Program-made: the position numbers and the translations under genes
The notes under the pieces: model-generated
The model's database searches: none
What the model was told of the DNA's origin: nothing
The model's input: only the letters and a program-made list of their open reading frames with translations
Shown here: piece after piece, positions 111 to 29,873 of the stretch
How the letters are laid out: every line of letters begins with the position of its first letter
Position numbering within the stretch: position 1 is the first letter of the stretch
From: a virus
DNA: 30,350 bases
IMG/VR virus record: IMGVR_UViG_3300025889_000622
Coordinates: 1 to 30,350 of that record
Direction: 5' to 3' (one strand)

Positions 111-2210
111 ATGCCATCAATATCATACGATCAAACTAGCCAAACGCATTCGCATCAACAGGCAAAGTTGTGGGCAGCCGATGCGTCTAAAGAATGTCCG
201 TCACCGCTGACGGGTGAACTGCTCGCCGTTCGGCAAAACCTCGACGCAGATTTGGGGTTTTTCCTCTGGACGTTGTTTCCCGAGGCTTTTCCGCTGGAAC
301 CATCCCCCTCACATCTGCGGATGATATCGGAGATCCAGAAGTCGGTTGATCACGGTGGGTTGAAAGCAATCGCGGCTCCGCGAGGATCGGGCAAAACGTC
401 GATCATGCTTCGGGCGGCATTGTGGGCGATGCTTTCCGGCCGCCGTCGGTACGTCTGTTTGGTCGCGGCCGATGCCGATTCCGCGATCAGCAACTTGGCA
501 ACGGTTAAAGCCGAAATCAACCATAACGAGCGGATTGCTAAGTATTACAGGCGAGAGACTTGGTGCGTACGTCAGCTGGGTGGCGAACCTCGCCGCGCGG
601 CGACTCAGCACTACGAAGGTCGGCAGACTGGCGTCGAATACAGTCGAAACGGATTGTGCCTGGGGACCATCCCCGATTGTCCGATCAGCGGTGCCCGCAT
701 CTCTACTGCGGGCATTACCGGCCGGATTCGGGGCCAGCAGGCGTTGACTCTGGATGGCGAAATCTTGCGACCGGACTTCGTTCTCGTCGATGATCCAAGC
801 ACTAAGCTATCTGCCGCCAGTACCAGTCAAAATAAAAAACGACATGAAACCATGATGGGCGACATTCTCGGGCTCGCCGGGCCGGGAGTGAAAATTGCGG
901 GTTTCTGCACCTGCACAGTGATCTACCAGGATGACCTTGCCGATCGAATCCTCGACCGAAAGCTATCGGCGGACTGGAATGGCGACCGAATTGCCATGGT
1001 CAAAAGCTGGCCCACTTGGATGGATGGTTGGGATCAGTACAACCAAATGCGAGTCGATGAACTCTTGCAAGAGCGAGATCATGAGGGATCGCGGCAATTT
1101 GTTCGCGATAACTTCGATCGCTTGCATGAAGGTGCGGAGGTCTATTGGGAGGCTCGCAAAAGCGAACATGATGTTTCCGCGTTGCAGCATGCAATGGATC
1201 TGTATTTTCGGGATACCGGAGTCTTCGCCGCCGAATATCAAAACGCACCGTTAGACCAAGTCGCTACCAGTCCCTACGACATCCAAACCGAAGCGATCAT
1301 GCGACGAATCACGGGGATCCCCCGAGGTGCCGTACCTGAAGACGTAGACAAGATCACCGCGTTTATCGATACCCAACGGGAGTTGCTGTATTACGTCGTC
1401 GTCGCATGGTCGATTACTGGTCGAGGGTACGTTATCGATTACGGTGCCTGCCCCGATCAAAAGCGTCATCATTGGGCGAAACACTCGGTTCCATACACGC
1501 TATCGCAGATTTACGGTGATGATTTCGAAACCTATTTGCGATCGGGACTTGACTGGTTGATCGGTGCGATTCTTGAAAACGAATACACTACCGAAAACGG
1601 TGCGAAGGTCATGGTTGACCGATTAGCAATCGATGCTCGGTGGGGGGAGTCAACCGCGATCATCCGAAAGTTAGCCAGGGAATCCCGGCACCGCGCTCGT
1701 CTGCACCCGTCCATGGGTATGTTCGTCGGGGCCAACAGTAAACCGTGGCAACAACTCAAGAGTTCTAAAGAGCGACGAAGCGATCGGCGCGGAGTTCATG
1801 CCAAACTGGTTACGCCTAAAGACGGCGGCCGTCGCGAGTTGCTTTACGATTCAAATTACTGGAAGTCATTCTGTGCTGATCGATTGCTTTGCCATGAGGG
1901 TTCGCCTAAAGCAATTATGCTGTTTGACGCGGAGCCCCACAAACATCGAATGTTTGCCGAACATTGTGCGGTCGAGGAACCAGTGCGGGTGCTAGGCAAA
2001 GCTAATAACGAAGTGGTTGAATGGCGAACGTCAAGTTCCCAGGTTGAAAACGATTTTTGGGATTGTCTGGTCGGCAATGCTGCCCTGGCATCGACCATCG
2101 GTGTCGAAACTCATTCAGGTAACCGAAAAGGTGGTCAGGGCATGAGTCGCGCGATTGAGAGCGTACTCAAACGAAAACCGTCAACCCAGTTTTTCCAAAC
2201 GCGAGGATAA
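111..2210 (+). CDS. terL: phage terminase large subunit
   Basis: This is the ATPase-nuclease motor that packages DNA into the prohead and cuts it. The N-terminal half has a Walker A loop APRGSGKTS at residues 89-97 and a Walker B strand FVLVDDP near 223-229. The C-terminal half looks like the RNase H-like nuclease, with likely acidic metal ligands in AFIDTQ (about 419), LAIDARWG (about 540) and ENDFWD (about 675). The length of 699 residues suits the larger terminase families. No small-subunit gene is visible, so it may lie to the left of the window. There is no good Shine-Dalgarno sequence before the ATG at 111. The next gene begins six bases after the stop. Confidence 0.93.
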   Translation: MPSISYDQTSQTHSHQQAKLWAADASKECPSPLTGELLAVRQNLDADLGFFLWTLFPEAFPLEPSPSHLRMISEIQKSVDHGGLKAIAAPRGSGKTSIMLRAALWAMLSGRRRYVCLVAADADSAISNLATVKAEINHNERIAKYYRRETWCVRQLGGEPRRAATQHYEGRQTGVEYSRNGLCLGTIPDCPISGARISTAGITGRIRGQQALTLDGEILRPDFVLVDDPSTKLSAASTSQNKKRHETMMGDILGLAGPGVKIAGFCTCTVIYQDDLADRILDRKLSADWNGDRIAMVKSWPTWMDGWDQYNQMRVDELLQERDHEGSRQFVRDNFDRLHEGAEVYWEARKSEHDVSALQHAMDLYFRDTGVFAAEYQNAPLDQVATSPYDIQTEAIMRRITGIPRGAVPEDVDKITAFIDTQRELLYYVVVAWSITGRGYVIDYGACPDQKRHHWAKHSVPYTLSQIYGDDFETYLRSGLDWLIGAILENEYTTENGAKVMVDRLAIDARWGESTAIIRKLARESRHRARLHPSMGMFVGANSKPWQQLKSSKERRSDRRGVHAKLVTPKDGGRRELLYDSNYWKSFCADRLLCHEGSPKAIMLFDAEPHKHRMFAEHCAVEEPVRVLGKANNEVVEWRTSSSQVENDFWDCLVGNAALASTIGVETHSGNRKGGQGMSRAIESVLKRKPSTQFFQTRG

Positions 2211-2216
2211 TATCCG

Positions 2217-2501
2217 ATGATCTGCGAAAAGTGCGGATGCCATGACCGAGTGATGAGAACAGTTCGCCGACAAGATCGGGTCGTTCGCATACGTCGTTGC
2301 ATTACTTGCGGTCACATGGTGACTACCGAGGAAACCAAGATCGAAAACCCAACGACAACCAAACCCGCACCCAAGCGGGTTCCCGAACCGACTCCAGTCA
2401 AGTCTGCCAAACCGCGTAAGCGCAAACAAAAAGCCGAACCACCTAAAAAAGATGATTCGGCCAAAGGTGCGTTAGCTCAAGCAATGGCCCAAGCAAGGTA
2501 A
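2217..2501 (+). CDS. small zinc-ribbon protein, NrdR-type finger
   Basis: The protein has 94 residues. Its first 35 or so form a zinc ribbon with C3-x2-C6 and C28-x2-C31, and the basic stretch and RRCITCGH context resemble the N-terminal finger of NrdR regulators. The ATP-cone that completes real NrdR is absent. It is replaced by a Lys/Pro/Thr-rich, probably disordered tail. The finger suggests nucleic-acid binding, either in packaging beside terL or as a late regulator; the role is inference. GAGGA near the end of terL serves as ribosome binding site. Its stop directly abuts the stop of the opposing gene, leaving no room for a terminator. Confidence 0.75.
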   Translation: MICEKCGCHDRVMRTVRRQDRVVRIRRCITCGHMVTTEETKIENPTTTKPAPKRVPEPTPVKSAKPRKRKQKAEPPKKDDSAKGALAQAMAQAR

Positions 2502-2825
2502 TCACCGCTTTTTTGGTTTGCCTTCGAGAGTGAGAGGCACTGGGGCGCACATCCGATTCCCGTTAGCGTTTCGGATCACGCCTGAAGACCAAGGTGCCTT
2601 CGTCTTTCCCGACTCTACTCCACGCAGATATGCGCGGAGTTTTTTCGAGATCGGAATCTTCGCTGGTTTCTTACGGTCAATTGCCCCGTCGCAATCGGGG
2701 CAAAGCAGCGTATCGGACAATGCGTGAATCGCGTAACCCGATTTGCATCGCAATCGATCGGTGAATTTATCCGCTTCGAATTCAACGCAGCACCAATCGC
2801 AAAAGTGCTTTCCGTCAACTTTCAT
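2502..2825 (-). CDS. small cysteine-rich putative zinc-binding protein
   Basis: This 107-residue protein has cysteines at 9, 12, 13, 27, 42 and 45 in a pattern (FCDWCC, RLRC, LLCPDC) that suggests one zinc-binding module. A basic region (KKPAKIPISKKLRAYLRG) follows. I do not recognise the family. It is the last of four reverse-strand genes joined by overlaps: its ATG at 2825 shares ATGA with the stop of the 35-residue membrane protein. It ends exactly against the stop of the forward zinc-ribbon gene. Binding of nucleic acid is likely but unproven. Confidence 0.7.
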   Translation of the reverse strand: MKVDGKHFCDWCCVEFEADKFTDRLRCKSGYAIHALSDTLLCPDCDGAIDRKKPAKIPISKKLRAYLRGVESGKTKAPWSSGVIRNANGNRMCAPVPLTLEGKPKKR

Positions 2826-2929: not shown

Positions 2930-3072
2930 TATTTACGTCCTCCGTTCACGTCTTTTTTCGCTTGTTCTCTACGCTTCTTTTTGCTGATCTTTTTCAGCAC
3001 CGCAGTGCGATCGTAGCGGTTCTTTCCGCTGTTCGATCCGCCCATTCCTTTTTTGATTTTCGGGTAGCTCAT
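2929..3072 (-). CDS. 47-residue lysine-rich basic protein
   Basis: The product begins MSYPKIKKGMGGSNSGKNRY and continues with a run of lysines and arginines (KKISKKKRREQAKK), so it is strongly positively charged and probably binds nucleic acid or a membrane surface. It has no cysteines and no known motif I can name. Its ATG at 3072 overlaps the TGA of the upstream 107-residue gene as ATGA, and its TAA shares a base with the next ATG. This chain of overlaps is the main evidence that it is translated. Confidence 0.62.
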   Translation of the reverse strand: MSYPKIKKGMGGSNSGKNRYDRTAVLKKISKKKRREQAKKDVNGGRK

Positions 3073-3392
3073 ATTGCAATCTTCCGCAATCGAGAACTGA
3101 GATTAAATCCGGTGACCATTCTACCGTCGGCATCATAGATATTTCCGCAGCAGTCGAGCGATTGCTCGGGATAGACGGCATGACAACTGCCGACTGAATA
3201 AGAGTTGCCGCCAACATGCACCTGCATGTTTCGGCCAATGCGACCGATACCGTACTTCTGAGCGCGGCCGCAAGATGAATAGAGTTTGATGTCGCCCACA
3301 TCGGCGAGTTTTTTGTACCAGCGGCCGTCAGTGCCGAGAATAGCGTCGTCCAAAGATCGCCGCACAAACCATTTTGCTTTTTGGTTGGTCAT
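3069..3392 (-). CDS. conserved-looking protein of unknown function, first gene of the reverse operon
   Basis: The product has 107 residues from the ATG at 3392; an in-frame TTG directly before it is less likely. GGAG at 3400-3403 is spaced seven bases from this ATG. The sequence is rich in aromatic and polar residues, with SLDDAILGTDGRWYKKL near the start and YPEQSLDCCGNIYDADGR later, and has four or five cysteines. It looks like a small folded beta-rich domain. I do not recognise it. The structured RNA at 3428-3872 lies directly upstream on the same strand, so this gene may be read from the same promoter with that RNA as its leader. Confidence 0.65.
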   Translation of the reverse strand: MTNQKAKWFVRRSLDDAILGTDGRWYKKLADVGDIKLYSSCGRAQKYGIGRIGRNMQVHVGGNSYSVGSCHAVYPEQSLDCCGNIYDADGRMVTGFNLSSRLRKIAI

Positions 3393-3427
3393 CAAAAATC
3401 TCCGTTGAGGTTGAAAGTGGATGAAAG

Positions 3428-3872
3428 GGTGAGACTCACTGACGTGTTGAGATTGTTTGTTAACCTGTCATCCCGATGCCCTCTCAACACTTGCTGTTTA
3501 CCGCAGCTAGCGTAAGCATCGGGCAGGTCACAGTGAGCCTCACCTTTCCATCGATCTGCTACCACTACACTCTCTCCCCGAAGGGTTGTAGGCGTTGGTA
3601 GTCTTGCTGCCGGGCAGCTCTGACGCCTCGTTATTCAGTCGCTGCTGCGACCTACGGTGTATGCTAGGGATGCTTGGATTCGAACCAAGAACTTCACAGT
3701 TGGATCCGGCCTGACCCGTGCCGTGAGAGATCAAGCTCACGCACCTTCAACCATTCGCGACTGGCGTCTGGTGTAGGATCGCAGGTGATCAAACTTGCTT
3801 GCCGGACTGCGATGTGATGCCAATTTCACCACATCCCCGTATTGGATTGTTTCAGTTAAGTCTCCTTAACTA
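3428..3872 (-). ncRNA. large structured RNA with tRNA-like, UUCG and pseudoknot domains
   Basis: No convincing protein gene lies here, but the reverse strand holds many long complementary segments. At the 5' end is a hairpin, AGTTAAG-GAGA-CTTAACT (3854-3871). Next is the tRNA-like domain 3665-3838. The middle has stem 3559-3569 with 3587-3601 capped by a cUUCGg loop (3576-3585), plus hairpins 3606-3618 and 3638-3651. The 3' domain pairs 3428-3441 with 3531-3544, 3463-3467 with 3524-3528, 3472-3479 with 3516-3523, and, crossing these, 3444-3452 with 3482-3490 (nine perfect pairs). GNRA and UUCG loops and G-U pairs appear only when the reverse strand is read. It could be a stand-alone ornate phage RNA, loosely like GOLLD or ROOL, or a long leader of the operon at 2502-3392. 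The ends are estimates. Confidence 0.62.
3665..3838 (-). ncRNA. tRNA-like domain with about 100 extra nucleotides
   Basis: Read on the reverse strand, GGGGATG (3838-3832) pairs with CATCCCT (3672-3666) as a seven-pair acceptor stem ending in discriminator A at 3665. A D-arm with GTG and CAC around a loop containing TTGG follows (3829-3814). The T-arm CTTGG-TTCGAAT-CCAAG (3689-3673) matches the tRNA consensus exactly and joins the acceptor directly. A GTGA-capped mini-stem (3701-3690) sits where a type II variable arm would be. An ordinary anticodon arm cannot be drawn: TCGCAG pairs with CTGCGA (3812-3807/3784-3779), while the adjacent TCCGGC pairs with distant GCCGGA (3806-3801/3710-3705), which forms a pseudoknot. 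CCA is not encoded. It may be a tRNA mimic or an interrupted tRNA gene. Confidence 0.6.
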
Positions 3873-3878
3873 CAGACC

Positions 3879-3907
3879 AGTTTATGACATGCAAAACTTG
3901 CCGTCAA
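3879..3907 (-). promoter_or_regulatory. sigma70-type promoter for the structured RNA
   Basis: On the reverse strand TTGACG (3907-3902) is a near-perfect -35 box. After exactly 17 bases comes TAAACT (3884-3879), a four-of-six match to the -10 consensus. Transcription would start near 3872, just before the GAGA-capped hairpin and the tRNA-like domain. Position, spacing and orientation all fit. Confidence 0.55.
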
Positions 3908-3937
3908 CCGCCGATAAAAGCTATTTCGGCACTTTTT

Positions 3938-3971
3938 TTGACAAAAACCAGCAAATATGCGCAGATATGCG
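3938..3971 (+). promoter_or_regulatory. possible divergent promoter/operator with direct repeats
   Basis: A perfect -35 hexamer TTGACA at 3938-3943 faces the late genes, but a good -10 box at 17 bases is missing; AGATAT at 3963-3968 is 19 bases away. Two copies of ATATGCG start at 3955 and 3965, ten bases apart or one DNA turn, as operators often are. The site lies between two divergent transcription units. Confidence 0.3.
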
Positions 3972-4013
3972 TTTTCGGTTTGCAAACGTAGCTAATTTTG
4001 GTACTGAAAAGGT

Positions 4014-4241
4014 ATGGCAGACTTAACAAATCAATCGATTGCGGACGCATTACTGGCGATTGGCCCCAGAACGGTCGAGGGGGACCAGGGACGGGTGAGC
4101 ATGCACTCGGTGCATGATGTCATCGCCGCGATGGAATATGACCGCAAACGAAACCGCATGAAGGACCGAGCTTCGGTTCGTCATGCCCTTCTCACTATCT
4201 CGAACCATAGATTGGCAACTCACGATGGTCGAGCTTCGTAA
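4014..4241 (+). CDS. gpW-like head-tail joining protein
   Basis: The 75-residue product lies between the terminase and portal genes, the position of gene W in lambda, and has the right size (lambda gpW has 68 residues). The middle reads GRVSMHSVHDVIAAMEYDRK, which resembles the short beta hairpin followed by a helix in gpW-like joiners. gpW-type proteins plug the portal after packaging and let the connector bind. Assignment rests on position, size and this local similarity. The stop lies within the start of the portal gene. The ribosome binding site (AAAAGG) is weak and close to the ATG. Confidence 0.6.
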   Translation: MADLTNQSIADALLAIGPRTVEGDQGRVSMHSVHDVIAAMEYDRKRNRMKDRASVRHALLTISNHRLATHDGRAS

Positions 4242-5871
4242 ACGGATTCAGGCATTCCTGAATCCGCCCCCGCAACCGCAACCACCTCGCAACGTATCGC
4301 CCGAGCGCATGGATGACGTAGCGTTATCTATGCGGTCGATCTTGCGAGGTAGTTACGATTCGGTTTCGCGTACCCCCGAGAATGCTAGACATTGGGCATG
4401 GGCCGATAACCTTTCGGCAGATGCTTCGCTGGTTCCCGAAGTTCGTATCCGGTTGCGAAGTCAATCAAGATACGAGTTGATAGAGAACAACTCGTACGGA
4501 CGAGGCATGGTCGATACGGTCGTCACCGATACGGTCGGCACGGGTCCGCGATTGCAGATGCAACAATTTCGGTTTTCAACAAATCAAGAAATTGAAAAAG
4601 CATGGTATCGGTGGTCATTGGCTGTTGGCCTTTGCGAGAAACTGCAAACCATTCGATCAGCTAAACTGGTAGATGGTGAAGTGGTAATCCGCTTCGTCAA
4701 CAACCTGACCGTCGAGGACGCGGTTCAACTTGACATTCAACTCATTGAGTGCGATCAGTTACGCTCACCGCAATTCGAATTGCAGATCAGTGAAAACTAT
4801 GTTGATGGGGTTCACTTAGACCGCTTCGGCAACCCCTATGCATACGACATCCTGCAACATCATCCCGGTGCTAACTATTGGAATTCGGTAGACCTGTATG
4901 CGCATGACACATACGGTTATGACCAAATCATCCATGCGTTTACTCCGACTCGTCCAGGGCAGCACAGAGGTGTTGCTGAGTTTGCACCGGCGTTGCCACT
5001 CTTCGCGTTTTTGCGACGGTTTACCCTGGCAACTGTTTCCGCCGCAGAAACGGCAGCGTCGGTGTCTCAGGTAATTGAAACCGATGCTCCGCTGCCCGAA
5101 GAGTTGGAAGAGCAGTACGCAGCAACTTCTTTCGACAAGTATCTCGATACGATTCCGGTTGATCGCAACAGTGCAACCGTACTTCCAAACATGTGGAAGT
5201 TACGGCAGTTTTCCGCCGAGCATCCGACGACTACTTACAAGATGTTCAAACGGGAGTTGATCAGCGAGATCGGTCGTACGTTGTGCATACCTTGCAACAT
5301 CGCTACCGGCGACAGTGGCGAATCTAATTATTCGTCTGCTCGATTTGATTGGCTCGGGTATGAGAGAAAAATCAAAACCGAACAGAGCTATCTTTCGCAT
5401 CGCGTTCTAGATCGAATCTTTGCGGAGTGGCTAGTAGAAGCGTCATTGACCGGCTCGATTCCAAAAAGCGCGGCGAATGTGGTCCTGGCCGATTTCGATC
5501 GGTACGGCAAACGCGGGATGGCAAACCGCGTGGAGCATTCTTGGTACTGGGATGGAATGCGGGATGCAGATGCAAAAGATGCGGCCAATGCTCAAAAAGT
5601 TCGATTGCAAAACGGATCTACGCAGCGGGCTCGCGAGTACGCATTGCAGGGACTCGACATCGAAGTTGAAGATGCAAAAGCCGCAGCTGGTTTCGGCGTG
5701 ACGCTTGAGGAATACCGTCAGGCAGTTATGGCGAGCGTATTCACCAACGGTAACATGTTGGCTCCCGGCACAACCGCAGAAGAATCAGAAGAACCTACAG
5801 AGGATGGCGAATATGGCATCGACGAGAACGAAGAAAATGAAACAGAAACCGAAACAGCGACCAGCGAGTGA
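4225..5871 (+). CDS. phage portal protein, lambda gpB family
   Basis: The portal is the twelve-fold ring at the capsid vertex through which DNA enters and leaves, and it docks the terminase. At 548 residues the protein is close to lambda gpB. Typical features are the early RHWAWADNLSADASL segment, the NNSYGRGMVDTVVTDTVGTG stretch near residues 85-105, and the later PCNIATGDSGESNYSSARFD segment near 370, all characteristic of lambda-type portals. The acidic C-terminal tail (EENETETETATSE) is usual. I prefer the ATG at 4225; an in-frame ATG at 4183 would add 14 residues but overlaps the joiner gene more. Neither has a clear Shine-Dalgarno sequence. The end overlaps the protease-capsid gene by 59 bases. 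Confidence 0.9.
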   Translation: MVELRKRIQAFLNPPPQPQPPRNVSPERMDDVALSMRSILRGSYDSVSRTPENARHWAWADNLSADASLVPEVRIRLRSQSRYELIENNSYGRGMVDTVVTDTVGTGPRLQMQQFRFSTNQEIEKAWYRWSLAVGLCEKLQTIRSAKLVDGEVVIRFVNNLTVEDAVQLDIQLIECDQLRSPQFELQISENYVDGVHLDRFGNPYAYDILQHHPGANYWNSVDLYAHDTYGYDQIIHAFTPTRPGQHRGVAEFAPALPLFAFLRRFTLATVSAAETAASVSQVIETDAPLPEELEEQYAATSFDKYLDTIPVDRNSATVLPNMWKLRQFSAEHPTTTYKMFKRELISEIGRTLCIPCNIATGDSGESNYSSARFDWLGYERKIKTEQSYLSHRVLDRIFAEWLVEASLTGSIPKSAANVVLADFDRYGKRGMANRVEHSWYWDGMRDADAKDAANAQKVRLQNGSTQRAREYALQGLDIEVEDAKAAAGFGVTLEEYRQAVMASVFTNGNMLAPGTTAEESEEPTEDGEYGIDENEENETETETATSE

Positions 5872-8011
5872 TTTGATCTTCGCTGCTTCGGAAGTGACCA
5901 TCGAGGCAGCGGGAGAGAATTCGCCCGAAGTAAACGTGACCGCGTATACCGGCGGCACGTTGTCCCTACCTAACTACCCGAACCCGGTGGTGATCAACCT
6001 TTCGGGTGTTCGGGCAATGAGTGACGAACAAATTCCGTTTCTCCGCGATCACCAACAGCAAAGAGTGGTTGGTCATGGGCAACCGGAAGTCGGCGAGAAG
6101 CAGTTAACCCACAGGGGCAAACTGTCGATCGCTGGCGAAGAACGCGATAACATTATCGCGGCGAGCAAAGAGGGTTTCCTCTGGCAGGCGTCTGTCGGAG
6201 GTCGCGTACCTGATGTTCGCAAAAACGTGCAAACGATCGCCGCTGGTGATCGAGTGCGGGTCAACGGAAAGTCTTTCGCTGGCCCAATTCATGTCGTTAA
6301 TGCTTTCCTCTGGAAAGAAACTAGTTTTGTCGCAGTCGGTGCGGATGAAGGCAGAGCGTCTGCCTCGATCGCTGCGGCGCAATCATCGGGAGTTTCCCCC
6401 ATGACCAAATTCGAAAAGTGGCTTGAAGATTCGGGGATCAACTCCGACGATTTGTCCGTAGACCAAAAGAAGAGTCTGGAAGCGGCGTACAACGCGCTGC
6501 CTTCCGAGGCACCGGAGCCTGCTCCTGCGAGTTCCGCCGTCGATATGGACTCCGTTGTCGCGTCCGCCACTAAAGCGGCCGTTGAAGCGGCCCAGCAGCA
6601 ATCGCAGCGTGATCGTCGTATCGATCGCCTGTTCGCAAACTACTCGGACGCTTCGGTGTCGAAAGAGTCGATCGATTCGCTTCGCGCTCAACTGGAAGGC
6701 GGCGAAATCAGCGAAGAAAAAGCTCATCTCGAATTGCTGTTGGCAAGTCGCGGACGTGGAAGTACCAGCAATGTTCATTCGGGGAGTCGAAGCGTGGGCG
6801 ATAATTTCGGGTTGGAACTTGAGGCTGCCGTTTGTCGCAACGGCGGTTTGAGCGATGAGCAGATTCACGGCAACCTCGTTGAAGCGGGTGCCTCTGCTGA
6901 TCAAGCCGAGTCGGCAGTCGAGCGATCTCGCAAAAACAGCAAAGGCCTGAAAAGCGTGATCATGGCGATTTGCCGCCAGGAAGGTCATCACGCCGATGAG
7001 GTCGATGACGACGCGATTCGTTGTGCCATGCGAGCCTCTGAGCGTGACAACGGGATGATCCAAGCGTCTTCGGGATTCAGCACGGTGGTTCTGCCGGGCA
7101 TTTTGAGTCGCTTGGCGAACAAAGCAATGCTCGCCGCGTACGCGGAAGCAGACAATGGTGGCGTTGCGACTCAAATCGCATCGACCACTTCGACTCGGGA
7201 CTTCAAAAAGTTCAATCGGTATCGAATGACTGAGAGCGGTGTTCTCTCTGAAGTTTCGGCAGCGGGCGAACTGCAACACGGTTCCCTGGTCGAAGAGGAG
7301 TACGAGAACCAAGTCAAGACGTACGGCAAAATCATGTCGCTGACGCGGCAGATGATGCGAAACGACGACTTGGATGCGTTCCTCCAAATCCCCCGTATGA
7401 TCGGCCGCATGGGGCGTCATGCGTTGGAGCAGTCGGTCATCACCACCTTGGTGGATGCTTCGACCAGTGCCGGTGCGGGAACCACTGAGTTCTTCCACGG
7501 TGCCGCTCGGGGTAACCAAGAGCCCAACTACTTGGAAGGTGCGGCCACTGCTTTGGGTTTCGACGCTTTGGAACCTGCCTATGAGTTGTTCCTGAATCAG
7601 GTCGATGCTGACGGCAAGCCCTTGATGATCGATCCAGGTCTGTTGCTCTGCACCAACGCGGACATCATCGCGGCTCGCAAACTGTACTCCGATACTCAGT
7701 ATCGGTTCACCGCAGCGGATCGTACGGAAACGATCAACAACCAGTGGGAAGGTATGTTTGAGCCTGTTAAGTCGAGCTACCTGCATCGACTTGGGGCATC
7801 GCCAAGTTCCACGCAGTGGTATCTGTTGGCTCGTCCATCAACCGACGTTAGTGCGATTCAGATCGCGTTCCTCGACGGTCAGCAAACCCCGACGATCAAT
7901 TCGTCGGAGACTCAGTTCAATACGCTCGGCATGCAGATGCGAGGCGTGTTTGACTTCGGTGTCGCATTGCAAGATCCGCGAGCGATCGTCAAGTGCAAAG
8001 GCGCAGCGTAA
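5813..8011 (+). CDS. prohead protease fused to HK97-fold major capsid protein
   Basis: One gene of 732 residues combines two virion functions. Residues about 20-190 are a prohead maturation protease: the likely catalytic histidine is in LRDHQQQRVVGHG (H80 or H88) and the likely nucleophile is S127 in WQASVGGRV. A helical, Ala/Gln/Glu-rich region about 197-310 probably acts as the scaffold or delta domain. From about 325 to the end is the major capsid protein, with FSTVVLPGILSRLANK and a C-terminal FDFGVALQDPRAIVKCKGAA. The start at 5813 has AGAGG nine bases upstream; the frame is open further up inside the portal gene. Cleavage between the domains is expected from the family. A separate scaffold gene is not seen. 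Confidence 0.88.
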   Translation: MASTRTKKMKQKPKQRPASDLIFAASEVTIEAAGENSPEVNVTAYTGGTLSLPNYPNPVVINLSGVRAMSDEQIPFLRDHQQQRVVGHGQPEVGEKQLTHRGKLSIAGEERDNIIAASKEGFLWQASVGGRVPDVRKNVQTIAAGDRVRVNGKSFAGPIHVVNAFLWKETSFVAVGADEGRASASIAAAQSSGVSPMTKFEKWLEDSGINSDDLSVDQKKSLEAAYNALPSEAPEPAPASSAVDMDSVVASATKAAVEAAQQQSQRDRRIDRLFANYSDASVSKESIDSLRAQLEGGEISEEKAHLELLLASRGRGSTSNVHSGSRSVGDNFGLELEAAVCRNGGLSDEQIHGNLVEAGASADQAESAVERSRKNSKGLKSVIMAICRQEGHHADEVDDDAIRCAMRASERDNGMIQASSGFSTVVLPGILSRLANKAMLAAYAEADNGGVATQIASTTSTRDFKKFNRYRMTESGVLSEVSAAGELQHGSLVEEEYENQVKTYGKIMSLTRQMMRNDDLDAFLQIPRMIGRMGRHALEQSVITTLVDASTSAGAGTTEFFHGAARGNQEPNYLEGAATALGFDALEPAYELFLNQVDADGKPLMIDPGLLLCTNADIIAARKLYSDTQYRFTAADRTETINNQWEGMFEPVKSSYLHRLGASPSSTQWYLLARPSTDVSAIQIAFLDGQQTPTINSSETQFNTLGMQMRGVFDFGVALQDPRAIVKCKGAA

Positions 8012-14372: not shown

Positions 14373-17155
14373 TGGATATCCCTCCTAAGCCGACTAAGGG
14401 GCAGCCTGCGATCCCGTACATCACAAACGCTGCCCTGTGGGGCGTTTTGATTGACATGGCGAATGCGTGGCAACGCGGTGAGATTGGTCCGCCGCCAGAG
14501 ATAACCACTGCGCAGGTCAACCCGCTCGGTCTTAACCCAGACGACGAAAATCCGATCACTGATCTCGTTCAAATTCTTGGACGGTTAAAGGATCCGACGC
14601 GCAATACTAGTGATCCAGCGGGAATGAACTTGGCGTTTGCCAAACCGACATTTGAGCTAGAGGATCCGGTTTGGCCCAACTCTTTTGACAAACTGCACGT
14701 CATGCGGCGGGATCTACACCCGTCAGGAATCGACCCGGCGCGAACCGGCCGATATGTAACGGTGCCTGTTGGCGGAGATGGTCCGTATGCGATGGTTGAT
14801 CCAATCAACCCAACGCAACTGACTAACCTGTACTCGGGTGAGTTTCGCCAACTAGATAGCTTCGGGGATCCCGAGGCGCATAGCGTTCTCGACCTGCAAG
14901 ACTCGCAGCGTATTTACACGTTTACGGTTTCCGAAGAACGTGGCGATTACTACGGACAATTCCAGGCGGAAGTTAAGGACATTTCCGGTGCGACGTTTAC
15001 GACGAATCAGGTCACGATCCATGACCCGATTGGATTCTCAGCCAACATGCGGCCGGGCGATACCGGCACATGCAAGTTGGTTGGCGATAAATGGTTCGTT
15101 ATCGGTCAGCAGGGACTCGATACGGTACTTATCAAATTTCGCATCCACCACCCAGCAGCAGACATTCGCTCTTATGTCGCTAGTATCGAACACATAACGG
15201 GTCGAGTTTTGGATCCCGAAACCGGCGATGCGTGGAAGAGGCTCGACTTTACATATGTTTACGACGTTGAAAACCAGTTCACCATGGCGGAATTCGGTGC
15301 CTATGGGTGGGCTGTTTGGGTGGTGAAAGAAGCAGATAATCCCGACGACCCACCAATTCAGCGTTGGGAGATGATCTCTTGCACTCTGCCGATCGAAGAG
15401 ATCGAGGTAGAGACTGAAGAGTGCATGTACAAAACTAATAGTGATACTTGGTACGGGACATTCACTTGGAACAACGAAACGCCAACCACCAATTGGAATC
15501 GCGGCACCGGAACAAATGTCGATTTTGATCGCCGCGATTCGGCATTTACCTCATTGCCTAACAACAAGTGGCGATTGGATTTTGAAAACCCATACGGACT
15601 CGATTGCATCGGCGGATCTAAAGTACGAGTCCGCCGCGTAGCGGATAAGCAACCGACGTACGAGTCTCTTCCTCGTGACACTGAAATTAAAACATACGGT
15701 GGTCACCAGACCAACGTACGCTGGGAAGTTGTTGACGTAACCAAACCGATCGCTCGTTGGATTTGCGTGCAGTGGGATGGTCAAGAATTTGAGATTTACG
15801 GAGGGCCAGGGTATTGGGAAGGGGAGGATCCCCGCGAGTGCGACGGGCAACCTATCGTTAGCACAGGTTGCTTGGATGTGGATTTGGACTGCGTCGAACC
15901 GCTCAGTAAGTTCATCTGTTGCTGGAATCCCGAAGCCGAGGTGTACCACATCGTATCGAGCATCAGCGGCGTTCTCGGTAATCCGGTAACTAAAAAGGTG
16001 CCCACAGGCGAGCCTACAGTCAGCACTGATCCCGAAGATTGCGAGGCCGGGAATTATTGTTTTGAGTGGCCGGTCACAAACATGCTATCATGGACTTGCG
16101 ACGACAATAAAGACGAAGACGAGCCCAAGCCCGATCCCATAAAACAGTGCATTAATGGGGCAGACTTCTTTCATTGCGTCGATCTTTGCCAATACATTTG
16201 CACCTATTGCGAATCGTATGCTGATGATCCTGAGTGCGATGACCCACCATGTTTAGAGTACTGTCTCTACGAGTGGGACGGGATAAACACTTGGACGCAA
16301 GTCGCGGACTACTGTACTGACGAGCCCGACTGCCAGTGTCCTGGCGAACCGGACTTTGACGGCACTAAAGTTGGTCAACTAGAACCGGTTCCCTGTGAGA
16401 AGGTTCCAGAATTTACCGATTGCCCTAATTGCACGGCATGTCATCCAAATCTGCTGATGCTGATTAGTACGCTTAACTTCAATCACAGTACCAGTTCTGT
16501 GGACAATGCAATCGGTGGGTTGATCGATGGGGAGGGCGCAATCGCCGCTTATTTGCAGGACGGTGACGCTATTCCGAGGTCGCAATGCGAGTGGCGAGTC
16601 CCGATTCGCTGGAGAGTAACGGGTAAACTGTCTAGGGTGGACGTTTTTGAAGACGACATGGCAACCGTTTCTTACGACCATGGAACGAGTACATGGACAG
16701 TCAATGTCGATAACGGATCGCCCGCAACGCCTGACACTGGCGATTACGAGGGCATCGGAGACTGTACCGGGTTGACTTGCGGACCTTTCGGGAATTGCAC
16801 CTGGGTCGATGGGACTTTCCCACTTCAGACTCTCGGGGGGCAGATTGGGACTACTACAGAACCGTGCCCACCGGCACAAGCAGTGTCAACGCTGATGTTC
16901 CAAACCCGATCGGTGCCTGATGTCACTAAGTTCGGGGATTATTTTAAGAATGCAAACCCCGAGCTATTCGCTAACTGTACCGGATGCAGTAACGGGTTTG
17001 TGGCAACACTGAACCGCATGGGCTCGGACTTGCGGGATACCACCGTGGATAAAGTGGCGGCCGGTATCGCTAAGAAGTCAAAACAAGCGGATGCGGAAGA
17101 AGTTAAACAGCGTATTCGCAACGCTCACGCTAGCTGGTTATCTTCACAGTTATGA
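14372..17155 (+). CDS. large cysteine-rich tail tip/fibre protein
   Basis: The 927-residue product starts at GTG 14372, sharing a base with the previous TAG. The first 330 residues contain almost no cysteine and look like a globular structural domain. From about residue 335 onward there are more than 30 cysteines, densest at about 593-695, where motifs such as CTYC, CPNCTAC and PDCQC occur. Such density means disulfides or bound metal, both rare in phage tail proteins made in the cytoplasm. The C-terminus is helical and basic. Position makes it a tail-tip or host-contact protein; the fold is not recognised. Confidence 0.6.
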   Translation: MDIPPKPTKGQPAIPYITNAALWGVLIDMANAWQRGEIGPPPEITTAQVNPLGLNPDDENPITDLVQILGRLKDPTRNTSDPAGMNLAFAKPTFELEDPVWPNSFDKLHVMRRDLHPSGIDPARTGRYVTVPVGGDGPYAMVDPINPTQLTNLYSGEFRQLDSFGDPEAHSVLDLQDSQRIYTFTVSEERGDYYGQFQAEVKDISGATFTTNQVTIHDPIGFSANMRPGDTGTCKLVGDKWFVIGQQGLDTVLIKFRIHHPAADIRSYVASIEHITGRVLDPETGDAWKRLDFTYVYDVENQFTMAEFGAYGWAVWVVKEADNPDDPPIQRWEMISCTLPIEEIEVETEECMYKTNSDTWYGTFTWNNETPTTNWNRGTGTNVDFDRRDSAFTSLPNNKWRLDFENPYGLDCIGGSKVRVRRVADKQPTYESLPRDTEIKTYGGHQTNVRWEVVDVTKPIARWICVQWDGQEFEIYGGPGYWEGEDPRECDGQPIVSTGCLDVDLDCVEPLSKFICCWNPEAEVYHIVSSISGVLGNPVTKKVPTGEPTVSTDPEDCEAGNYCFEWPVTNMLSWTCDDNKDEDEPKPDPIKQCINGADFFHCVDLCQYICTYCESYADDPECDDPPCLEYCLYEWDGINTWTQVADYCTDEPDCQCPGEPDFDGTKVGQLEPVPCEKVPEFTDCPNCTACHPNLLMLISTLNFNHSTSSVDNAIGGLIDGEGAIAAYLQDGDAIPRSQCEWRVPIRWRVTGKLSRVDVFEDDMATVSYDHGTSTWTVNVDNGSPATPDTGDYEGIGDCTGLTCGPFGNCTWVDGTFPLQTLGGQIGTTTEPCPPAQAVSTLMFQTRSVPDVTKFGDYFKNANPELFANCTGCSNGFVATLNRMGSDLRDTTVDKVAAGIAKKSKQADAEEVKQRIRNAHASWLSSQL

Positions 17156-18153
17156 CCAAGAATTTAAAATACCGCACAGATCAACGTCTGACGTTCGCCG
17201 ACGTTGATGCTAACTTCGATGCACTACAGCACTACAGCGGTTCGCATACCGCAGCTTCGCTGTACCGAGTTAATGAAGTAGTGCGGAGCATGGGCGGGGT
17301 ATGGATATGTTTGCAGAACACGGTATCTCTGCCATACCTGTCTCCCGCTGATTGGTCATTGATCGGTACTACTCCAGGCCGCATTGGGATGCAGTTGGAT
17401 ACTCCAACTGCTGGGGCCAATCTTGGCGGAACGTATGTTGTTCCCCCGTATGACAATTCGTCGCGATGGGGAGAAGGCGCAGCGGTAGACCTGTCCACGG
17501 GGAAAGCGACTATTAGCTGGCCGGGATTGTGGTTGCTGCATGTGAGCATCTCTCTAGAGCATGACGAATCAACTAGTGCCCGGCAGACCATTGTGCGGTT
17601 GTACAACGTCACGCAAAGTTCATCGGTGCAATCAATCACTGTACCGATCGCGAAGAATCAACCAGCGACATTCATCTCGACAACTTTCGCCGTGCAGATT
17701 ACTGCGGCGACGATCGGGGATGAGTTTCGCGTCGAGTTGGGAGGCGGATCGACCGTATCGTCGATCATTTACGAGTCGAACACTTTTGCCGCCGTGCAGC
17801 ATACGCCGGTAACAGACGGCACTTACACGCTGACCGCTGCAAGCGAAACAGATTCGGTCACATGGTTGACTGTTTTGGACGGCACCTACCCGCTGACCGC
17901 AGCAACCGAAACGGACGCTGCCACCGCCATCGCGGCCGTCGTCAATCCTCGAACTTATCAACCGGTGTTCCCGATCAAACGCGAGGCTAACCATGCAGTC
18001 GGTTTGACGGTCGTCAATCCTCGGGTGTATCCGCTGACGGCCGCCAGCGAAACCGATTCTGCGACCGCGTTGACGGTCATGGACGGGGTTTACCCCCTGG
18101 GGGCCGCCACCGAGGTCAGTGTCGCCGAGCCGATGAATGTATGGATTATCTAA
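17152..18153 (+). CDS. tail fibre protein with C-terminal E-T-D repeats
   Basis: The 333-residue protein begins MTKNLKYRTDQRLTFADVDA-like sequence followed by a domain with AASLYRVNEVVRSMGGVWIC, the short carbohydrate-binding-like or fibre-attachment pattern common in tail fibres. Residues about 85-220 resemble a C1q/TNF-like beta domain (LSTGKATISWPGLWLLHVSI). From about 225 come four to five repeats of about 21 residues with the core LTAASETDSATALTV. The same repeat makes up most of the gene at 25661-26488. ATG overlaps the previous stop as ATGA. It ends the tail operon before the terminator at 18169. Confidence 0.65.
   Translation: MTKNLKYRTDQRLTFADVDANFDALQHYSGSHTAASLYRVNEVVRSMGGVWICLQNTVSLPYLSPADWSLIGTTPGRIGMQLDTPTAGANLGGTYVVPPYDNSSRWGEGAAVDLSTGKATISWPGLWLLHVSISLEHDESTSARQTIVRLYNVTQSSSVQSITVPIAKNQPATFISTTFAVQITAATIGDEFRVELGGGSTVSSIIYESNTFAAVQHTPVTDGTYTLTAASETDSVTWLTVLDGTYPLTAATETDAATAIAAVVNPRTYQPVFPIKREANHAVGLTVVNPRVYPLTAASETDSATALTVMDGVYPLGAATEVSVAEPMNVWII
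17830..18140 (+). repeat. degenerate E-T-D repeats in the fibre gene
   Basis: Four to five units of about 63-72 bases encode the pattern L-T-A-A-x-E-T-D-x-A-x-x-L-T-V followed by a tyrosine-containing turn (GTYP, PRTYQ or PRVYP). One middle unit has diverged. The units are related to those at 25748-26275 but more degenerate. Confidence 0.65.
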
Positions 18154-25079: not shown

Positions 25080-25661
25080 ATGGAACAAACAGTCGAAGCG
25101 GGATCGGTAGCGAGTATCGTTGTCAATGTAATTGACGATAATGGCGACCACGTTGCAGCAATAATCGACCAAACAACGACTCGATTGCAAAAGGGGAATG
25201 CAAGCGACACAACGTGGAACAGCGTTGCTCCAACGTCTGTAGATGAAATTACAACCGGCGTGTACCGAATACGCTTCACCAACGTCACTCCCGAGCTTAC
25301 GTTGACCGACAACGACGAGGCGATCCGGCTAAAGATCAACGGCACGATTTCGGGGACTGCCTGGACCGAATACCACATGCCTTTGCGAGTCGTTCCTGCA
25401 ACTCCGAGAGCAGTGGTGAAGGGCGAAGTCGATACCGGCATAACATTGCCAACGACCAGTCAGTTTTCGACCACTGCAACAACTAACGAGCCTTACGAGG
25501 GTAGGACGCTGGTTTTCACCAGCGGTAACAACGAGCATCTAGCAGTAAAAATTACTGGCACTTCGATTGTCAGCGGACAACTTAGCCTGGCAGTTGAAAC
25601 ACATGATGGATCAGCAATGCCTCTCCCCCCCGCTGACGGCGATACCTTTGAGGTGATTTGA
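25080..25661 (+). CDS. virion appendage protein with two beta-sandwich domains
   Basis: The 193-residue protein has an N-terminal Ig-like domain (VASIVVNVIDDNGDHVAAII to RLKI, about residues 8-90) and a C-terminal domain (GEVDTGITLPTTSQF, then YEGRTLVFTSGNNEHLAVKI and PPADGDTFEVI) of a type often found in phage neck or tail appendages. AGGAC lies before the ATG. Its TGA overlaps the next ATG as TGATG. It is likely an adaptor or decoration part rather than an enzyme. Confidence 0.62.
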   Translation: MEQTVEAGSVASIVVNVIDDNGDHVAAIIDQTTTRLQKGNASDTTWNSVAPTSVDEITTGVYRIRFTNVTPELTLTDNDEAIRLKINGTISGTAWTEYHMPLRVVPATPRAVVKGEVDTGITLPTTSQFSTTATTNEPYEGRTLVFTSGNNEHLAVKITGTSIVSGQLSLAVETHDGSAMPLPPADGDTFEVI

Positions 25662-26488
25662 TGCCGATTGGCTTGACTCGAATCGGATTATCGACTGCTC
25701 CCCGAACCGATTACTTTTGGGGAGAAGCACCGACGGGGATAGTCTCGCTGACTTCGGCGGCCGAAACCGATTCCGCGATTACGCTTGCCGTCGCTAATCC
25801 TCGCAGCTACCAGCTGACTTCGGCAGCCGAAACCGATTCGGCCGTTGCGATTACGGTCATCAACCCGCGCAGCTACCAACTAGCTTCGGTAGCGGAAACC
25901 GATTCGGCCGTTGCGATCACGGTCGTCAATCCTCGCAGCTACCAACTGACTTCGGTAGCTGAAACCGACGCTGTTGCTCCGCTGACCGTCGAACTGTCAA
26001 AGATAGTCTCGCTAGCTTCGGTAGCTGAAACTGATTCCGCCATCGCGATCGCCGTCGCTAATCCTCGCGGTTACCAACTAGCTTCGGCAGCCGAAACTGA
26101 TTCCGCCATCGCGATCTCGCTGGTCAATCCCCGCAGCTACCAACTAGCTTCGGTAGCGGAAACCGATTCGGCCATTGCGATTACGGTCATCAGTCCGCGC
26201 GAGTACCAGCTAACTTCAGCGGCCGAAACTGATTCCGCCACCGCAATTTCGGCAATACACAAAACAATCACTGTTGGATCCGGCAACGAAATCGATGATT
26301 CCTCGTTGCTGACCGTGCGAAACACTGTACTATTGTCTGGTGTATTTGAAGTCAATACCGCTCCAGAGATAACGGTAGTTTCTGTTGCGGCCGTCTGTAT
26401 TCACGTTGGATCGGCGACTATTGCTACTTCTAAAGCGACAGGGCACATTGCCACCGCTAAAGCAACCGGTTTCTTTAAATGTTTGTAG
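25661..26488 (+). CDS. fibre-like protein of eight E-T-D repeats
   Basis: The 275-residue protein consists largely of eight 22-residue units with the core LASVAETDSAIAITVVNPRS followed by YQ (residues about 30-205). A unique start (LTRIGLSTAPRTDYFWGEAP) and a less repetitive C-terminal part (about 206-275) flank them. Repeats of this A-x-E-T-D-x-A type occur in phage tail and fibre proteins and probably build an extended beta structure. The same unit appears at the end of the fibre gene at 17152-18153, linking the two products. The preferred ATG at 25661 overlaps the previous stop. Confidence 0.68.
   Translation: MPIGLTRIGLSTAPRTDYFWGEAPTGIVSLTSAAETDSAITLAVANPRSYQLTSAAETDSAVAITVINPRSYQLASVAETDSAVAITVVNPRSYQLTSVAETDAVAPLTVELSKIVSLASVAETDSAIAIAVANPRGYQLASAAETDSAIAISLVNPRSYQLASVAETDSAIAITVISPREYQLTSAAETDSATAISAIHKTITVGSGNEIDDSSLLTVRNTVLLSGVFEVNTAPEITVVSVAAVCIHVGSATIATSKATGHIATAKATGFFKCL
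25748..26275 (+). repeat. eight tandem 66-bp coding repeats
   Basis: Exactly eight 66-base units run from 25748 to 26275, each encoding 22 residues. The ETDSA core is conserved in seven units; unit 4 reads ETDAVAPLTVELSK and has lost the NPRSYQ turn. Units differ by scattered base changes, with alternating LTS/LAS and AAE/VAE blocks that suggest past exchange between units. Confidence 0.85.
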
Positions 26489-27939: not shown

Positions 27940-29873
27940 TTGGTATATCTCCGAGAGAAATGGGTTTCTGCTTCCAAGGGCAGATCCGAATCTGCCCAAC
28001 TGGGATTAGTAGACATTATTTGATTGACAGTCGCAAGAGCTTTGGGTTCGCCTTCGACCAACACTTCATCGTGTACGTGACCGACGATTTTGTGACCGTC
28101 TTCATCGAGGCGAATCATCGCGTCCATCAGCACATCGCGGGCAACCGCTTGCGTGATGTTCTCGCAGAGTTTGCCGCCGTAGAGATATCCCTCGGCATTT
28201 TTGGCAGTAAGAAACGTCAGACTGTTTTCTTTAGGATCAAACTTCAAATTTGGATAGTGCAGGGTTCGTCCCGAGGGTAGCGTCACCACCACCTCACCAG
28301 TATTAGCGTTGCGACGAATCAGCACTTTTCCTACGGTTCGAACCGGGTTAGCCATATCGACCGTCACGTCGGCAAACGCTCGATCCAGGGCTCGCCAGAA
28401 CGCGGGTATTTCTTCAAACGCAGATCGGTAGGTATCAATGATTTGCCCCGACTGCTCCGCGTCCAACTCGATGCCGATCGTACTGCGGACAGTTTCGGCA
28501 AACTTGTCTTTGCCCATTCCGTATCCGGCACCGAGGATGCATGCTTTCCCGAGTTGCCGTCCCTCGGTGCCCTTACCAAACTCGGTTGCTGGTCGATGGT
28601 AGATTTCGCCTGCCATCTCCGAATAGGGATCACGATTTGAATCGGCGAATAGATCGATTAGCCGGGTGCATCCGGCTAGCCAAGCGGCGACTCGACATTC
28701 GATTTGCGCGAGATCCGATACGATCAATACTTTGCCTTCAGGAGCGCAAAACATCGGGCGAATCATCCTCTTCGCGATCTCCAGGGGATCCCCGAAAATG
28801 ACGCGGATAGCATCGAGGTTTCCCAACTCAAACATCTTCAGAATCGATTCGATGCTCTCATCACTAAGCGACATGCGGGGCAGGTTCTGGAACTGCACCA
28901 ATCGACCTGCCCATCGGCCGGTTTGGGATGCTCCGTACAACTGGAACAGACCTCGCATTCGGTTATCACTTGGATCGGCGGCCGTCGCGATTACCCCGTA
29001 CTTCGCCAGGGATCCCAGTGCGAGCGTCTGCCGTATCCGCAATACCTCCATCGCCTCGGTCGTCATGCCGGAGGGGGACGCTAGAGAGGCTCGGACGGTG
29101 CCCGCCTGTAGATCGCTGCCAGGGTAGCCTTGCGTCTGCAACCAACCAAGCATCTTCGCCTGTTGGCGGCCGGTCGTCACTTCGCCACCAGTCAACTCGG
29201 GTAGGCGTTCGGCTTGTCGCTTTGCTTCCTGGCGGACTGCCTTGTCGATTGTCTTAGCGGCCGCAACATCGCAGTACACTCCGTTGTCATTGATTTTTTG
29301 ATCGAGTCGGAATTCAGTCGAATCGACCGGGAATCCGCCGAAGTGTTTTTCGATTGCCATCTCGGTGCGAACATCCTGCTCGCAGTATGCGATCAGCGTT
29401 TTCATATTTTCGGCGTGATTCTTATGCGCGGTCGATCCTGCTTTGGTGGGCTCATAGGTTTTGCGGTTCGCCATGCGGACCATCATCCGCGATGCGGTCA
29501 CGTCTTTTTTCTGATCTACGCCCAGACGCTCGGCGAGCGTTGCGAGAGCGGCCGGAAGGTTACGCCGCATGGCAGTCACCATGGTGCAGCGATACGCGGC
29601 AGGAGCGACCGAGAAGCGGTAACGGGGCATCAAGATATTCGCCCATATCGCTGCTTCAAATCGGTAATTGTGGGCGGCCAAAACAAACGGCTCGGTGAAA
29701 ATATCCGGCACCGGATCACCGGGGAGCCACGTCCGCACATCATCGGCATCGGTGGCGTAGCTCATGCACCAGATATCGGTACTCGCATCCAGGGAGTATG
29801 CCCAAGTACCGAGCTTTTGCAGCGATGCCAATGATCGCGTTTCAAAATCGACGTGGATGATGGGATGATTCAT
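27936..29873 (-). CDS. family A DNA polymerase with 3'-5' exonuclease
   Basis: The 645-residue protein is a phage replicative polymerase of the PolA type without the 5'-3' nuclease. Residues 1-180 are the DEDDy proofreading domain: VDFET (8-12), AHNYRFEAA (67-75) and AYCEQDV (162-168). The polymerase part has TGRWAGRLVQFQNLPR (318-333), motif A with D387 in SDLAQIECR, motif B with R439 and K443 in RQLGKACILGAGYG, the ENITQAVARD helix (571-580), and motif C HDE at 601-603. All key residues are present, so it should be active. The ATG at 29873 overlaps the stop of the repeat protein. In motif A the usual Tyr/Ser-Q-I-E is AQIE. Confidence 0.93.
   Translation of the reverse strand: MNHPIIHVDFETRSLASLQKLGTWAYSLDASTDIWCMSYATDADDVRTWLPGDPVPDIFTEPFVLAAHNYRFEAAIWANILMPRYRFSVAPAAYRCTMVTAMRRNLPAALATLAERLGVDQKKDVTASRMMVRMANRKTYEPTKAGSTAHKNHAENMKTLIAYCEQDVRTEMAIEKHFGGFPVDSTEFRLDQKINDNGVYCDVAAAKTIDKAVRQEAKRQAERLPELTGGEVTTGRQQAKMLGWLQTQGYPGSDLQAGTVRASLASPSGMTTEAMEVLRIRQTLALGSLAKYGVIATAADPSDNRMRGLFQLYGASQTGRWAGRLVQFQNLPRMSLSDESIESILKMFELGNLDAIRVIFGDPLEIAKRMIRPMFCAPEGKVLIVSDLAQIECRVAAWLAGCTRLIDLFADSNRDPYSEMAGEIYHRPATEFGKGTEGRQLGKACILGAGYGMGKDKFAETVRSTIGIELDAEQSGQIIDTYRSAFEEIPAFWRALDRAFADVTVDMANPVRTVGKVLIRRNANTGEVVVTLPSGRTLHYPNLKFDPKENSLTFLTAKNAEGYLYGGKLCENITQAVARDVLMDAMIRLDEDGHKIVGHVHDEVLVEGEPKALATVNQIMSTNPSWADSDLPLEAETHFSRRYTK

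Follow-up and report, generated by a model that had tools for sequence, protein, structure and literature searches.

A tRNA gene with a 102-nucleotide insert in its anticodon loop in a probable tailed-phage DNA

Results and Discussion

The phage DNA and its minus-strand cassette

The DNA analysed here (the window) comprises a single linear IMG/VR virus record, 30,350 bases long. Its plus strand carries a tailed-phage head and tail module in which cement, head-tail joining and tail tube proteins are encoded in addition to the three genes listed first below, and a family A DNA polymerase is encoded on its minus strand. A scan of genome contigs with a terminase alignment found 60 relatives, among which singletons lie in Elusimicrobia, Clostridia, Alphaproteobacteria and Acidobacteria assemblies; because the relatives with a named group are mostly Planctomycetota or Lentisphaerae, the host of this phage probably belongs to the planctomycete circle. 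Repetitive coding regions are present elsewhere in the window: minus-strand positions 29870-30339 are a coding region of short-period repeats, where one frame is similar to YdcK beta-solenoid repeats, with a weaker match to bactofilin, and another frame gives MAMPxS repeats, and 25658-26488 encodes a protein built of repeats of ~25 amino acids with the core AETDSA, a core that also occurs in 17152-18153. The genes and features of the window that are used in the following sections are:

111-2210, plus strand: terminase gene
4183-5871, plus strand: portal gene
5705-8011, plus strand: protease-capsid gene
3879-3907, minus strand: promoter-like site ahead of the tRNA gene, TTGACG-17-TAAACT (consensus scan)
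3665-3838, minus strand: interrupted tRNA gene, 174 nt including the discriminator base (ARAGORN with introns, fold, contig identity)
3426-3558, minus strand: stable long stem with a predicted pseudoknot, between the tRNA and the next gene (z-scores)
3490-3482 with 3452-3444, minus strand: candidate pseudoknot strands GTGTTGAGA and TCTCAACAC (loop-loop complement)
3069-3392, minus strand: ORF of 107 amino acids, no known family, downstream of the structured domain
2502-2825, minus strand: ORF of 107 amino acids with Cys pairs, no known family (sequence)
2432-2462, minus strand: terminator-like stem, 13 pairs long, with which the minus-strand unit ends (structure scan)

The single promoter-like site is no more than chance would give (1.5 such sites are expected in shuffles), and five terminator-like sites were found in the region where 2.1 are expected. 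Searches of viral contigs, phages and Pfam with both 107-amino acid ORFs gave no informative match.

The nearest relatives of the phage are contigs L016, L024 and L025, whose portal proteins are 55-57% identical to that of the window in the best segment. The genes that flank the minus-strand cassette are 64, 70 and 64 bases apart in these three relatives, respectively, versus 1,512 bases in the window, and the whole ~1.5 kb cassette is absent from all three. Because the flanking genes are separated by 64-70 bases in three relatives, the minus-strand unit (tRNA, structured RNA and two ORFs) is, by this comparison of gene neighborhoods, accessory. The same relatives, all without the whole cassette, speak neither for nor against a plain tRNA at this site in related phages, an arrangement that the first-pass annotation of this DNA had considered. 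Three contigs of the same population as the window (L004, L005 and L006) have no differences from it at 3665-3838, and L004 and L005 were aligned. Contigs L005 and L006, which come from different metagenomes, terminate with their position 1 at the same base, window position 3645; this shared boundary a short way downstream of the tRNA hints that the junction varies within the population.

An interrupted tRNA gene at 3838-3665

ARAGORN in its default mode reports no tRNA gene in the window. When introns are allowed it calls a single gene, exactly at 3665-3838 on the minus strand, with an insert of 102 nt, and its search for a tmRNA, which would combine tRNA-like ends and a region that codes for a tag, gives nothing; there is also no Rfam tmRNA match, so the idea that the locus is a tmRNA was rejected and the first-pass statement that it is neither a normal tRNA nor a tmRNA holds. 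To estimate the chance level of such a call, the 30,350-base window was dinucleotide-shuffled 200 times and scanned with inserts of 0-400 nt allowed: one insert-bearing gene was called in total (its insert was 19 nt long), and none had an insert of 60-150 nt. When ARAGORN with introns was run on natural DNA (159 loci, 1,367,409 bases), it called 11 copies of the 3665-3838 locus and three other insert-bearing genes (in L098, L122 and L124) that fold badly, and with one of the settings it also produced an artefact that spans tandem tRNAs in L014; it thus errs more often in natural DNA than in shuffles. The Rfam tRNA model (RF00005) gives a sub-threshold score of 14.6 bits (the cut-off is 29) to 3665-3746, the 3' part of the gene, and this is its only match in the window. 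The parts of the gene, all on the minus strand, are as follows, from 5' to 3':

3832-3838: acceptor stem 5' strand GGGGATG, seven pairs with CATCCCT at 3672-3666
3814-3829: D-arm GTGAAATTGGCATCAC (fold)
3806-3812: anticodon stem 5' strand TCGCA(GT), pairs with 3700-3694 (probability ~0.77 over six pairs)
3804-3806: TCC, 5' copy of a direct repeat flanking the insert (sequence)
3704-3805: 102-nt insert in the anticodon loop (ARAGORN insert length)
3801-3805: CCGGC, 5' end of the insert, predicted to stack on the anticodon stem (pairs with GCCGG at 3710-3706, 0.92)
3779-3784: CTGCGA, the partner earlier assigned to TCGCAG (pair probability 0.08)
3750-3772: predicted insert hairpin 1, ACCA GA CGC ... 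GCG AA TGGT (fold)
3718-3744: predicted insert hairpin 2, GTGC GTGAG ... CTCAC GCAC (fold)
3706-3710: GCCGG, 3' end of the insert (fold)
3702-3704: TCC, 3' copy of the direct repeat (sequence)
3694-3703: CCA, a possible anticodon, and anticodon stem 3' strand (AC)TGTGA (ARAGORN, fold, excision registers)
3673-3689: T-arm CTTGG TTCGAAT CCAAG, 5-pair stem (fold)

The four tRNA stems have canonical lengths (acceptor 7, D 4, anticodon at least 5 and T 5 pairs), the D-arm reads GTGA-AATTGGCA-TCAC with a 4-pair stem, and the variable loop is AGTT. Bases T8, A14, G18, G19, A21, T54, T55, C56 and A58, which we take to be the consensus bases of tRNA D- and T-arms, are all present. The anticodon loop as encoded is 109 nt long rather than 7 nt, and it becomes 7 nt long only after removal of 102 nt. 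Both the fold and ARAGORN bear out the minus-strand limits 3838-3665, the acceptor stem, the D-arm and the T-arm as first annotated, and the roughly 100 extra bases that had been seen between the D- and T-arms are the 102-nt insert. The possibility that two half-tRNAs lie in tandem here was rejected; the halves pair together in the acceptor and anticodon stems and therefore form one gene. The main part of the first-pass observation is real, and a tRNA whose anticodon loop is filled with extra bases is the better description of 3838-3665.

The acceptor end is an A followed by GCA, with no encoded CCA. The 19-mer GTGGTGAAATTGGCATCAC of the D-arm is also found within ordinary tRNA-Gln and tRNA-Asn genes of other viral contigs, so that the D-arm is Gln/Asn-like, and the T-arm resembles those of Asn tRNAs. 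The acceptor end without CCA and this mixed picture of D-arm and T-arm point to no single isotype.

The anticodon arm is predicted to persist

In an unconstrained fold the anticodon stem TCGCAG/CTGTGA has a pair probability of ~0.77 and the CCGGC/GCCGG helix of the insert ends 0.92, while TCGCAG/CTGCGA reaches 0.08. The first-pass annotation had placed a pseudoknot where the anticodon arm should be, with TCGCAG paired to CTGCGA and the adjacent TCCGGC paired to GCCGGA. The second of these helices stands as a prediction in its CCGGC/GCCGG core, but it stacks on the anticodon stem and makes no pseudoknot. The first does not, since the nested anticodon stem is strongly preferred (~0.77 versus 0.08) and its partner hexamer CTGCGA is no rarity, being present in 633 of 20,000 shuffled inserts. 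The GTGA that had been taken for a mini-variable arm belongs to the anticodon stem, being the last four bases of its 3' strand, (AC)TGTGA, which immediately precedes the variable loop. From these folding calculations we judge a pseudoknot alternative to the nested anticodon arm unlikely, and word this no more strongly because the folding program does not model pseudoknots and cannot score them.

It could nevertheless be argued that the locus encodes a pseudoknotted tRNA mimic in which TCGCAG/CTGCGA and TCCGGC/GCCGGA form together in an HDV-like strand order and there is no anticodon stem. Both helices can be drawn and their a-b-a'-b' order is that of a pseudoknot, but the pair probabilities and the commonness of CTGCGA given above leave this mimic unsupported, there is no Rfam ribozyme match, and a home-made descriptor run over 3880-3400 gave no HDV-like candidates, where 0.1 per shuffle is expected and the descriptor has little power. 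We consider it very improbable. HDV-like theta ribozymes are reported as another structured RNA at phage tRNAs (PMC10879173) and resemble the present locus in that respect; their hallmark is a nested double pseudoknot with P3 and a catalytic C. The other explanation offered in the first pass, a tRNA gene with an unusual insertion, fares better: all of the tRNA parts are present, the anticodon stem included, and excision of the insert gives a tRNA that ARAGORN calls Trp(CCA) (below).

The insert and its possible removal

Is the insert a distinct element, and could it be removed from the transcript? Its ends form a 5-base terminal inverted repeat, which was reached in 177 of 20,000 shuffled inserts. 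Its own fold is unremarkable, as 66 of 500 shuffles are equally stable, and 52 of 400 shuffled inserts preserve the acceptor, anticodon and T stems at least equally well, so the fold makes a weak argument for the insert. The stability of the complete 184-nt fold is also not unusual (z -0.95).

Eight excision registers remove 102 nt and leave a 7-nt loop, and all eight keep U33 and a purine at position 37. The resulting loop is GTCCAAC in four and ATCCAAC in one of them (anticodon CCA), and the anticodon is CCG in the other three. After removal of the 102 nt at the TCC repeat ARAGORN calls the gene tRNA-Trp(CCA), and it calls the uncut gene tRNA-Arg(CCG). The insert might therefore be a ~102-nt intron that is removed from the precursor to give a working tRNA with the anticodon CCA (Trp) or CCG (Arg). 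The eight registers and the acceptance by ARAGORN of the spliced form as a tRNA agree with this, as does the site, since the anticodon loop is the usual place of tRNA introns. In addition, TCGCAG can pair with the 3' exon (CTGTGA) or within the insert (CTGCGA), as competition between an exon and a guide would need. Such an intron would be of a new, very small type because no known splicing signal fits it, as is set out in the next paragraph, and we think it unlikely.

Group I introns of bacterial tRNAs are likewise insertions in the anticodon loop with an exon strand that has two possible partners, but here the insert is 102 nt long and no Rfam group I match was found at E values up to 5 over 3300-4100. 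The group I model RF00028 gave no match in the window at E values up to 10, although it gave a hit in only 8 of the 14 genomes used as controls. The 5' exon of a group I intron ends in U and the intron itself ends in G; in the register after U33 the insert ends in T, not G. The junction is similar in its helix-bulge-helix shape to that of archaeal tRNA introns, whose strict bulge-helix-bulge has 3-nt bulges separated by a 4-bp helix, but here a 7-bp stem, a 5-nt bulge and a 5-bp helix are predicted, and the terminase relatives of this phage are in bacteria, mostly Planctomycetota and Lentisphaerae. Finally, a review states that the phage introns known at its date were all within protein-coding genes (PMC3984707), and the titles and abstract openings of the papers surveyed on phage tRNA introns and tRNA inserts contain no described case.

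Searches for relatives of the interrupted tRNA

Two pattern scans of viral contigs yielded no second member of the interrupted tRNA. A scan with the D-arm 19-mer found eight stretches, namely three of the window's own population, three ordinary tRNAs and two without a tRNA, and a scan with the insert ends found 34, of which three are again of the own population. Seventeen of the 31 others have tRNAs that ARAGORN finds in its default mode and 14 do not; among these 14, 12 are coding or unrelated by eye and two (L174 and L185) share a tRNA that has a 31-nt insert. In L174:4170-4300 and in L185 ARAGORN places the extra 31 nt in the anticodon arm of this second viral tRNA, part of which is similar to mycobacteriophage tRNA-Tyr genes.

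A covariance model of the interrupted gene (CM R1) matched none of 20 viral records, and with strict filters its only matches in planctomycete genomes, apart from an odd array tRNA, are to tRNAs of ordinary length (18 of 392 genomes). When the insert was searched against the 392 planctomycete genomes, 38 gave matches with E values up to 0.1, all of them short and at chance level for so large a number of genomes, and a search against plasmids gave no relative above chance level. A blastn search of phages with a longer query from the region, the insert included, found mostly D- and T-arm matches to ordinary tRNAs and no relative of the insert, and the same kind of search of plasmids gave nothing informative. 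By sequence comparison, then, the insert appears as an orphan in all of the collections searched. Because these collections contained no uninterrupted copy and no independent relative of this tRNA, its insertion history is something that we infer.

A structured RNA downstream of the tRNA

The fold of 3400-3664 has a z-score of -5.05 (none of 200 shuffles is as stable) and that of 3430-3555 a z-score of -4.71. The 9-base loop-loop complement in the 3426-3558 domain, which provides the strands of its predicted pseudoknot, was reached by 8 of 20,000 shuffles. As modelled, this structured RNA is directly upstream of the ORF at 3392-3069 and might be either a leader with a regulatory role or an independent RNA. 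A covariance model of this domain (CM R2) matched none of 294 planctomycete genomes, and its three matches in 55 loci fall on the domain itself, on the opposite strand of the domain and, weakly, in L125. One Rfam match, to IRES_Bip with an E value of 0.23, was taken to be chance. The large phage RNAs GOLLD and ROOL are similarly described as structured RNAs beside or around tRNAs (PMC12286853), but they are far larger, and no Rfam match was found here at E values up to 5 over 3300-4100.

The interrupted tRNA could be a purpose-built non-decoding RNA in which the tRNA shell is a stable scaffold or decoy and the insert is the working part, acting together with the structured leader downstream. 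The tRNA body is intact and the strongly structured RNA (z -5.05) is its direct downstream neighbor. Phage tRNAs in which the anticodon loop is altered have been suggested to evade host anticodon nucleases (PMC10264068), and a supply of phage tRNAs is reported to counter tRNA-cutting defences (PMC11555353). The sequence is also identical across the population contigs, but within a single population such identity is poor evidence of selection. Neither a second member nor covariation support was found, and the z-score of the whole tRNA fold is just -0.95. On balance we consider such a purpose-built RNA quite unlikely.

Interpretation of the interrupted tRNA

The 3838-3665 locus is, in our opinion, probably a tRNA gene into whose anticodon loop 102 nt have been inserted; its transcript would be trimmed, would carry a long branched arm and would most likely be unspliced and non-decoding. 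It would be the first element of an accessory minus-strand unit that consists of the promoter-like site, the tRNA, the structured leader, the two ORFs and the terminator-like stem, and its transcript would be trimmed at 3838 and 3665 as ordinary tRNAs are. The RNA is predicted to take a tRNA fold in which the anticodon arm is much longer than usual and the acceptor, D- and T-arms are where they would normally be; the anticodon stem would persist, and CCGGC/GCCGG would continue it into a branched pair of hairpins. In its unexcised form such an RNA would keep the shape of a tRNA and could not decode, and codons would be read only if the insert were removed. The acceptor, D-, anticodon and T-stems are common to this gene and ordinary intronless phage tRNA genes, which differ from it in lacking the 102 extra anticodon-loop bases and in being called without introns allowed.

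As for its history, the most likely course is that a small structured element, with a 3-bp repeat (TCC), entered a tRNA whose anticodon was CCA or CCG. If it stays unspliced, the product would be a tRNA-shaped non-decoding RNA, either a recent casualty or one that is kept for its shape, in the latter case for example as a target or decoy for tRNA-handling enzymes. A bolder view, which we hold as a tentative and lesser possibility, is that the locus represents either a very small intron of a new class or a tRNA-scaffolded RNA of natural origin. In it, a structured domain of 102 nt mounted on the anticodon stem would serve the phage and be made in one transcript with a second, strongly folded RNA. 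If this is true, the tRNA shell would present that domain, perhaps for use against tRNA-cutting defences. A spliced insert would make a ~100-nt intron that belongs to no known class; an unspliced one would be a natural counterpart of the engineered tRNA scaffold and would give a handle on the role of non-decoding phage tRNAs. Phage tRNA genes are normally plain, and default gene finders skip interrupted ones, so such genes may be undercounted.

Hairpins inside planctomycete tRNA genes

Run on four planctomycete genomes, CM R1 hit tRNA-Gln genes of the ordinary kind; it also hit a tRNA of 95 nt that lies in a tRNA array of Planctomycetes bacterium K23_9. This 95-nt tRNA was followed through 199 genomes of its family, and 118 of them contain some match. 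The tRNA-Lys slot of 29 array loci is occupied by a tRNA with a hairpin in its anticodon arm in 11 (L221-L227, L229, L235, L237 and L248), by a plain tRNA-Lys(TTT) in 15 and by another form in three. The hairpin has the form GGGC-ACCGACGC-loop-GCGTTGGT-C and is ~24 nt long; its stem is kept and its loop varies. The same dispersed hairpin occurs elsewhere in the genomes, and also in the D-loop of an array tRNA-Phe, the variable loop of an array tRNA-Asn and the anticodon loop of another tRNA in L254 (the loci outside the tRNA-Lys slot are L254, L261, L270, L274 and L275). It resembles the short palindromic repeats of the REP type described in PMC3733652, with an apparent preference for RNA loops.

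Hairpin-bearing tRNA genes exist and recur in the group of the putative hosts, so this group appears, from these genomes, to tolerate structured insertions in tRNA loops. The planctomycete hairpin and the phage insert are alike in being structured insertions in tRNA loops, the anticodon arm included, but the former is ~24 nt long and of one sequence family and the latter is 102 nt long and not demonstrably similar: the similarity of the phage insert to the hairpin pattern CACCGACGC-n-GCGTTGGT is reached by 721 of 3,000 shuffled inserts, and there is no demonstrable kinship. The recurrence of hairpin insertions inside the tRNA loops of planctomycete arrays also bears on the purpose of these arrays. 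Planctomycete arrays in L193, L195-L198 and L213 have 17-19 tRNA genes in 3 kb, many of them with unusual D-arms. The same hairpin is also present inside stretches of L252 and L253 that match the group II intron model RF02001, with a score above the cut-off in L252 only.
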